NCBI GenBank assembly: GCA_018713335.1
Contig: DVOW01000061.1
Span: forward strand, 58,638 to 122,637
DNA length: 64,000 nt
Origin: Candidatus Merdivicinus intestinigallinarum
GTDB taxonomy: Bacteria > Bacillota > Clostridia > Oscillospirales > Ruminococcaceae
Direction of reading: 5' to 3'
Of this stretch, positions 52,170 through 52,861 are shown piece by piece. A model generated the notes under the pieces. That model was not told the DNA's origin and did no database searches. It worked only from the letters and a program-made list of their open reading frames with translations. Numbering within the stretch: position 1 is the stretch's first letter; each line of letters opens with the position of its first letter. The translations under genes and the position numbers were made by a program.

Positions 52170-52202
52170 GAAAATCCCCCGCCCAAAAGGACGGGGGATT
52201 TG
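52170..52202 (+). terminator. Rho-independent terminator
   Basis: AAAATCCCCCGCCC-AAAA-GGACGGGGGATTTG: AATCCCCCG pairs with CGGGGGATT. Confidence 0.85.
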
Positions 52203-52220: not shown

Positions 52221-52670
52221 CTATTTTACAGACAAACAACACATATTACTATAGAGTTCCATATAGAAATCCAACAATTTTTGATTGGTCGCTTCCCGGC
52301 TTTTCACAACTTCCGCTACCGCCATCGCCTTGGCGCTTCCTGCCACATCTTCCGGCGCATATGTTTCTGTGCCGCAGTTAGACGGGATTTTTTCCAATGT
52401 AGCAAGCGCTTGCATAATATGGCTGTTGTCATGTTGAATTTTTTCAATCCGATTGAGAATTTCGATCTGCTCTAAACCGTAAATTGTTTTTATTTCTTCG
52501 GTAGTCATTTTCGTTTCCTCCAAAAATCTATTTGGCGGACACGTTAAGCAAATGGTCTGTTCATCCACGAAGCGTGCCCTGCCATGTTTCACCAGGCCTT
52601 TGGCCCGTTTGGGATAGGTCGCTTCCAACAGGTTTCCCTGCTCGTCCAATACGCGCACTGTTTTTTCCAA
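52221..52670 (-). CDS. Small protein with IscB-like PLMP/RRXRR N-terminal domain, no nuclease domain
   Basis: 149 residues from TTG 52670, which sits seven bases after GGGGAGG. Residues 1-45 (KTVRVLDEQGNLLEATYPKR, then AKGLVKHGRARFVDEQTICL) follow the pattern of the PLMP/RRXRR domain at the start of IscB/IsrB proteins: a V-x-V-L-D-x-x-G-x-x-L strand, a short basic linker, L-V-K-x-G-R-A-R-x-V, and a final T-I-x-L. No RuvC or HNH part follows; the rest is two predicted helical stretches (70-100 and 110-145). I know of similar small proteins in Clostridia but no established function. A long leader with its own promoter precedes it. The domain call is my pattern reading, moderately sure. Confidence 0.6.
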   Translation of the reverse strand: MEKTVRVLDEQGNLLEATYPKRAKGLVKHGRARFVDEQTICLTCPPNRFLEETKMTTEEIKTIYGLEQIEILNRIEKIQHDNSHIMQALATLEKIPSNCGTETYAPEDVAGSAKAMAVAEVVKSREATNQKLLDFYMELYSNMCCLSVK

Positions 52671-52832
52671 TGGGTGTCCTCCCCTTCGCGTTACCAGGTT
52701 AGATCTGGAGCATAGCACTCTAGGTCCTTCCTGTTTGTTTTCAATTTGTGTCCCGCGCTGGAAGATGATACCAGTTATGAGGACTTAAACCGCTGTTTTT
52801 TGTGATGGGTGCCGTCCCCGGGTCTTATTTTC
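52671..52832 (-). ncRNA. Structured 5' leader of the PLMP-like gene, omega-RNA/HEARO-like (tentative)
   Basis: About 150 nt between the promoter and the TTG. Minus-strand elements: CTGG-N9-CCAG hairpin (52773-52757), GTCCT that can pair with AGGAC near 52730, a CCAG-ATCTAAC-CTGG hairpin (52708-52694), and a 3' end GGGGAGGACACCC containing the ribosome binding site. CTCC (52710-52707) can pair either within the hairpin or with GGAG of the ribosome binding site, which are mutually exclusive. Similar 3' ends occur, as I recall, in HEARO/omega-RNAs upstream of IscB genes; not verified. Confidence 0.45.
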
Positions 52833-52861
52833 AGTATACCATTTGGCCAAATTGCTGTCAA
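52833..52861 (-). promoter_or_regulatory. Promoter of the PLMP-like gene and its leader
   Basis: Minus strand TTGACA (52861-52856), 17 bp, TATACT (52838-52833): consensus-like, placing the start about 155 nt before the TTG. Confidence 0.75.

Follow-up and report, generated by a model that had tools for sequence, protein, structure and literature searches.

The window, i.e., the whole stretch of 64,000 nucleotides of Candidatus Merdivicinus intestinigallinarum analysed here, contains a minus-strand gene in which a PLMP-like domain is joined to a second, predicted helical domain and which is preceded by a leader with two copies of a covarying RNA motif. We propose, with a probability that we put at roughly 0.55, that the PLMP-like domain represses its own translation via the leader hairpins and that an internal ribosome site supplies the C-terminal domain. 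Both the existence of the leader RNA element and, judged from profile comparisons, the homology of the N-terminal domain to the PLMP domain of IscB/IsrB are close to certain, and the gene region is constrained both as protein and as RNA.

The gene (52221..52670, minus strand) starts with a TTG codon at 52670, ends with a TAG stop codon at 52221-52223 and encodes a protein of 149 aa; the open reading frame of the stand-alone PLMP/RRXRR-like protein announced in the preliminary description is thus present as given there. By the structural model and the family alignment, this long product (52221..52670) consists of an N-terminal PLMP-like and a C-terminal helical domain. A RuvC or HNH part is indeed missing after the former, and the remainder is predicted to be helical, as had been supposed. 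Past the stop codon, an inverted repeat (CCCCCGCCC...GGACGGGGG, 52172..52200, assigned to neither strand) was recognized by eye as a possible bidirectional terminator; it was not among the hits of the terminator scan.

The PLMP-like domain (residues 1-46; 52533..52670, minus strand) is supported by its RRXRR match, hhalign and Foldseek. With residues 1-50 as the query, Pfam RRXRR (PF14239) matched residues 5-40 at E 4.4e-4 (20.6 bits), and with the whole protein it matched at E 0.0023 (18.3 bits). The gathering cut-off of 25 bits was not reached by either the N-terminus (20.6-20.7 bits) or the whole protein, so that the single sequence is below the threshold on its own. At E <= 0.01, RRXRR is matched by 17 of 29 N-termini from the family and is the sole Pfam family found. 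In a profile search against the PDB, an unrelated repeat match (E 0.016) ranked before an IscB (9k30, E 0.066), and IscB-like genes were therefore gathered from the same phylum (hits in 25 of 249 genomes, 21 over the cut-off) for a profile comparison. The resulting alignment (A5) holds 17 of 25 IscB-like N-termini, eight having been left out as duplicates, truncated or divergent. Aligned with this profile by hhalign, the family profile gave a probability of 95.5 and E 1.5e-8 over residues 5-37, and the RRXRR likeness therefore exceeds chance. The expected similarity to RRXRR is thus significant at the level of profiles, although the single sequence stays under the Pfam cut-off, and the PLMP-like character that had been read from the first residues is borne out. 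The AlphaFold2 model (26 sequences; pLDDT 78, pTM 0.47) has strands at residues 5-8 and 14-18, a helix at 20-28 and strands at 33-36 and 39-41. This predicted b-b-a-b-b fold, an antiparallel sheet with one helix, is that of the PLMP domain, which the available text of the IsrB report describes as a four-stranded antiparallel sheet plus a helix (PMC9581776). Foldseek found no PDB match at E 0.001 or better, but ranks 1-8 are all IscB/IsrB (probability 0.93-1.00, E 0.057-0.25; 24-33% identity over 46-48 columns), so the proposed comparison with the IscB fold came out in favour of the preliminary description. The eponymous P-L-M-P residues are absent: the window protein has LLEAT and its relatives mostly YEAT or IGxT, whereas 11 of the 17 IscB rows aligned here carry them. 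The suggestion of a relative of the IscB system holds for the homology of the domain.

The family is large (1370 relatives at E <= 1e-3 in a large protein set) and without a name; few of the 120 relatives listed are named, and those as hypothetical. In two close relatives (P0003 and P0008) the helical C-terminal domain appears, by eye, to be tandemly duplicated. Eighty loci (L002-L081, the 80 best out of 305 retrieved with the words EATYPKRA and GLVKxGRARF) belong to Merdivicinus, Oscillospiraceae, Lachnospiraceae, Herbinix, Christensenellaceae and unnamed Clostridia, and by their record titles stem mostly from gut metagenomes. A filter by a similar expression kept 78 of 84 loci; these, the window (together 79) and 34 distant copies, minus L117 (a duplicate of L084) and L120 (truncated), make up the 111 copies referred to below, near-identical ones included. 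Two loci, L059 and L083, were left out of the leader alignment. Since loci were fetched and filtered by sequence words, the invariance of residues is partly a selection artefact, but codon choice is not; near-fixed codons in the 79 copies are ACC for T18 (76 of 79), CGC for R33 (74), TTC for F34 (72) and CCG for P45 (70). By a crude pairwise count, pN/pS was 0.29 in the copies with a helical C-terminal part (class A, see below), counted on residues not covered by the fetch words, and 0.31 in 20 profile-found copies of a second class (class B), and the PLMP-like peptide is, therefore, under purifying selection.

The preliminary description credited the gene with its own leader, and such a leader was recovered both in the window and, with covariation, in the relatives. 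A promoter-like site (52833..52861, minus strand; 11/12 matches) has its -35 element TTGACA at 52861-52856 and, after a 17-nt spacer, its -10 element TATACT at 52838-52833, preceded by TG; two copies of the motif follow. Sites of the sigma-70 type (>=9/12) precede 89 of 104 first motif copies in relatives, compared with 4.3% of single-base shuffles, which served as the background, and in 81 of these 89 the -10 element ends 5-8 nt before the outer stem (P1). Copy 1 would therefore form the 5' end of the transcript. The motif, present in 1-3 copies per leader, consists of a P1 arm, GGGG-ANGRC-ACCC-AU-NNN-AAAAAA-C and the second P1 arm, in which P1 is variable in sequence but covarying, P2 is an inner GGG:CCC stem and the tail reads AUNNNAAAAAAC. 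At one locus (L115) the loop of the motif is, by eye, replaced by an additional hairpin. Rfam contains no match for the leader motif, which may represent a new cis-acting RNA family and is put forward here, from sequence comparison, as a candidate. In the window, copy 1 (52782..52829, minus strand; RNA model R1, E 1.1e-12, a seed row), which lies where the transcript is predicted to begin, has the core GGGGACGGCACCCAUCACAAAAAAC at 52819-52795, with P1 formed by 52825-52821 and 52791-52787 and P2 by 52818-52816 and 52809-52807. Copy 2 (52647..52694, minus strand; R1 E 2.7e-8, not in the seed) lies over the predicted ribosome-binding site and the start codon, with its core GGGGAGGACACCCAUUGGAAAAAAC at 52684-52660 and a possible P1, paired by eye, of 52691-52687 with 52655-52651 inside codons 6-7. 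The next best R1 match in the window has E 2.6.

Covariation was counted on 82 ungapped copies (alignment A3: 113 motif-1 copies thinned to 98, 82 of these used) for a structure that was picked after a register scan. The five pairs of P1 are 77% paired, with two-sided changes at all five, and in the whole set of 113 copies they lie 5.4-9.9 sd above shuffles; in the inner GGG:CCC stem, G-C changes to A-U in six rows. For the whole motif we counted 149 two-sided cells vs. 55 in shuffles and a covariation score of 0.504 vs. 0.158 (each reached by 0 of 500 shuffles, relatedness being ignored), and 85.5% paired cells vs. 33-48% with slid partners. Two of the five measures, two-sided-change pairs (203/500) and further pair types (53/500), were not above shuffles. 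The outer stem of copy 2 covaries in part: out of ten pairs tested, four reached z 3.5-5.1 and the rest lay between -0.9 and 0.8, and the stem is 59% paired at its own register vs. up to 53% off register. The minimum free energy (MFE) fold of the window leader alone did not form the motif stems.

As a rule, the last motif copy lies across the start position, with 94 distinct copies at a distance of 3-8 nt, and in relatives its P1 extends as far as codons 7-9. The last motif was found 23-96 nt before the domain in at least nine copies (L083, L110, L111, L123, L135, L137, L138, L142, and L143), and at L140 no motif copy was found in the leader. The codon at the position of the window start is variable (n = 79: AUC 45, AUG 15, AUA 9, UUG 6, AUU 2, other 2). 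After the preceding stop and before residue 5, an in-frame ATG, GTG or TTG occurs in 92 of the 111 copies; the other 19 have none and would, therefore, need a non-canonical start.

Motif and gene go together. We searched 59 hand-chosen genomes, 37 with the gene and 22 in which profile searches found none, for the motif pattern with at most one mismatch and obtained 52 matches, all within the leader of the gene or over its start, in 33 of the 37 gene-bearing genomes; the pattern was missing from the remaining 4 and from all 22 genomes without the gene. The RNA model alone, run on 299 genomes of the phylum with 20 first-look candidates scored per genome, so that copies may be missed, hit just the genome of the window, one other genome with the gene (G127) and G264. 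The last is a distant member of the phylum in which a 52-residue frame (IAKNEMVLDAHSNPLHLTHPKRA...), apparently decayed and PLMP-like by eye, starts at the motif (motif and frame at 1507-1675 of L206), and it therefore supports the pairing of motif and gene.

The leader repeats and an internal start go beyond what the preliminary description contained. The latter consists of a Shine-Dalgarno-like GGAGG (52517..52521, minus strand), 8 nt before an ATG at 52508, from which a shorter product of 95 aa (52221..52508, minus strand), the C-terminal helical domain alone, is predicted. A GGAGG before an in-frame ATG (one GTG) at the domain junction is found in 108 of the 111 copies, with a spacing of 8 nt in 104 and 5 nt in 4; the three remaining copies carry a weaker internal site. 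In all 108, Glu is encoded by GAG and the codon before it ends in G, although the amino acid at that preceding position differs between copies (Leu, Thr, Met, Ser, Lys, Gln, Trp, Gly or Glu). Outside the junction zone just four GGAGG-start sites were counted in frames totalling 25,377 codons. Two of 12 C-terminal relatives in the database (P0019, 99 aa; P0241, 91 aa) are without the N-terminal domain according to gene calls made by others and known from the protein records alone.

What follows the junction differs between species. The 109 of 111 copies that gave a C-terminal part fall into groups without a BLAST link at 1e-4, namely 82 helical ones (class A, including the window), 26 beta-rich ones (class B) and one short one. 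The model of class B, an unnamed family with 156 relatives at E <= 1e-3, is a predicted jelly roll with repeats behind it and has a weak similarity to carbohydrate-binding modules and ephrin-receptor domains. At the class B loci (L113-L141) the leader and the PLMP-like domain stand before this predicted jelly roll, many with GDGC-type repeats. A third short C-terminal type (MxxKEALLxxVNxMSETQ...) was seen behind the same N-terminal domain at L142 and L143 (G425 and G535), where the internal site is AAAGGAG and not GGAGG. Leader, PLMP-like domain and internal site precede these differing C-terminal domains in frame in 111 of 111 copies and therefore form one unit. We regard this as a candidate for an in-frame dual-start gene architecture that may be present across many gut Clostridia.

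In class A only, the coding region also holds an RNA stem (52533..52583, minus strand), with the arms 52583-52572 and 52544-52534 joining codons 30-33 to codons 43-46, which is also formed in the MFE fold of the window. Over 68 distinct sequences 96% of its cells are paired vs. 30-56% with slid partners, and the mean MFE z against synonymous shuffles is -1.96, with 58 of 60 sequences below -1. Its pairs are mostly invariant or show one-sided changes, and covariation proper is slight. The 3' arm (UCCGCC) is complementary to the internal GGAGGA with one G-A mismatch; as it can pair with either partner, the coding stem and a hidden GGAGG are mutually exclusive. In the predicted folds the GGAGG is unpaired at 0.35 with the upstream arm vs. 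0.20 without it, being clearly more open with the arm in 39 of 73 cases and less open in none, so the calculated effect of the upstream arm on the internal site would be modest.

We infer RNA binding, by analogy with IscB/IsrB, and also repression and two products. The PLMP-like domain would bind the tandem leader hairpins of its own mRNA, as the reported contacts of IsrB and IscB with the terminal hairpins of omega-RNA suggest. The last hairpin lies over the ribosome-binding site and the start codon predicted for the gene, and its binding would lower initiation at the first start. The internal start would be used to make the C-terminal domain alone as a second product; its use may be linked to translation of the first part, with the RNA stem exposing or masking it. 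The outcome would be a self-adjusting ratio between the long (PLMP plus C-terminal domain) and the short (C-terminal domain) product, in which the C-terminal domain, with a predicted helical fold in the window and a jelly-roll-like one in other species, would be the effector. Two traits of autogenous leaders are seen here, a structured and covarying leader and a structure over the ribosome site and start. In the IsrB work, as far as its text was available, the PLMP domain contacts the tandem hairpins SL7 and SL8 at the end of the omega-RNA, and SL7 holds the Shine-Dalgarno sequence of isrB, for which the authors suggest a control of IsrB expression (PMC9581776). The terminal hairpins of IscB are, according to the accessible part of the corresponding report, recognized by the PLMP domain in a mainly sequence-independent way (PMC9640706). 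The leader motif here is conserved in sequence, unlike those contacts, which speaks against the proposed mechanism, and the binder of the motif could be another protein or a ligand instead.

A minor, though real, share of our confidence goes to the PLMP-like frame being mainly the translated leader peptide of an attenuator, the passage or stalling of which would make the internal ribosome site accessible, with the C-terminal domain as the real product and the hairpins as sensors of a ligand or another protein. The near universality of the internal GGAGG, the swapping of the C-terminal domains, the coding-region stem that competes with the pairing of the internal site and the 19 of 111 copies whose long frame has no canonical start all agree with such an attenuator. 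However, no stop codon interrupts the frame between codon 38 and the internal start in any of the 111 copies, a feature that a mere leader peptide could do without, and the peptide is under selection at the protein level with what the model predicts to be a whole PLMP-like fold. Rather unlikely, in our view, is a long fusion that acts in trans as an RNA-binding protein on other RNAs or the ribosome, with the leader hairpins merely setting its level. The likeness of PLMP to the N-domain of IF3, as set out for IsrB in the portion at hand (PMC9581776), points that way, as do the match to 1tif (Foldseek rank 36, E 1.3), the codons AUC, AUA and AUU at the start position (45, 9 and 2 of 79), and the repression by IF3 of a non-canonical GUC start in Streptomyces, as the available text has it (PMC5472188). 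Yet in the 59 genomes searched the hairpin pattern is confined to the PLMP-like gene and there is, therefore, no visible regulon, though RNA targets that lack the motif may exist.

A minimal mobile or guide-RNA element would fit the sporadic spread of the gene, the N-terminal profile of which matches 57 of the 396 genomes in the GTDB family of the source genome and the full profile of which matches 4 of 398 genomes in a phylum-wide sample (own genome counted in both). It is, however, a very improbable explanation, because each of the 57 positive genomes carries exactly one copy and, at 76 loci, no neighbouring frame, transposase or other, is common to more than a few. No relative of the protein was found in the viral contigs and plasmids searched. 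Two unverified records filed as bacteriophage, MT838929.1 (L208) and MT836355.1 (L209), match the PLMP-like domain, but both are unannotated faecal scaffolds, and L208 resembles a fragment of a bacterial chromosome from human faeces, its other frames being bacterial-looking by eye. A decayed IscB/IsrB remnant without present function is hardly credible: truncated IscB-like frames do exist in the phylum (L194 and L195), but the 1370 relatives, a pN/pS of about 0.3, the conservation of the RNA and the start sites, and the lack of HEARO RNA in the window stand against it, and purifying selection in particular disfavours this reading.

IscB probably gave rise to Cas9, and this family may bear on the question of how the use of RNA by a RuvC nuclease arose. 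No nuclease was among the Pfam matches (26 members at E <= 0.1; four C-terminal parts at E <= 1), Rfam gave no hit at all in the window, HEARO RNA included, while 7 of 8 chosen IscB-like loci scored above the threshold as a positive control, and the leader motif was found at none of 30 loci with RRXRR hits. On sequence evidence the gene, therefore, belongs with the PLMP-domain relatives and outside the OMEGA systems. As a separate observation, HEARO RNA lies upstream of the truncated IscB-like frame of L194 (full-model match, 137 bits). Ribosomal protein genes and infC with autogenous leaders encode RNA-binding proteins and have a structured 5' leader over the ribosome site, and the present gene, to judge by its sequence, has a similar arrangement of an RNA-binding-type gene and a structured 5' leader that overlaps the ribosome site. 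It differs from them in that RNA and protein are unrelated, the leader is tandem and there is a second, internal ribosome-site sequence. With IscB/IsrB and its omega-RNA (HEARO, RF02033) it shares a homologous N-terminal domain and a structured RNA directly upstream, the IsrB hairpins carrying the Shine-Dalgarno sequence in the portion of that study available (PMC9581776), but it lacks RuvC and HNH parts and the P-L-M-P residues, its RNA is not HEARO, and it has a sequence-conserved tandem motif, an in-frame internal start sequence and swapped C-terminal domains. A structural likeness of the IsrB PLMP to the IF3 N-terminal domain is reported in what could be seen of the same study (PMC9581776); here the match is weak (1tif, rank 36, E 1.3, TMq 0.22), and the C-domain of IF3 is absent. 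In Streptomyces sigR, too, the start codon is non-canonical (GTC) and keeps translation low, as stated in the accessible text (PMC5472188), whereas here AUC, AUA, AUU, AUG or UUG stands inside a conserved RNA motif. In the available parts of the IsrB and IscB papers, the PLMP domain figures solely as the N-terminal part of IscB/IsrB (PMC9581776; PMC9640706). It is conceivable, although we consider it doubtful, that the present family is a nuclease-free PLMP branch that kept the original task of gripping Shine-Dalgarno hairpins of its own mRNA for translation control, and that the omega-RNA of IscB/IsrB, and via it the partnership of Cas9 with guide RNA, began as an autoregulatory leader of this kind, a RuvC nuclease later capturing the leader and its PLMP binder. 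A free PLMP-like protein with a short conserved RNA motif would make the binding of this domain testable apart from the nuclease, and the family may supply an outgroup for the origin of omega-RNA.
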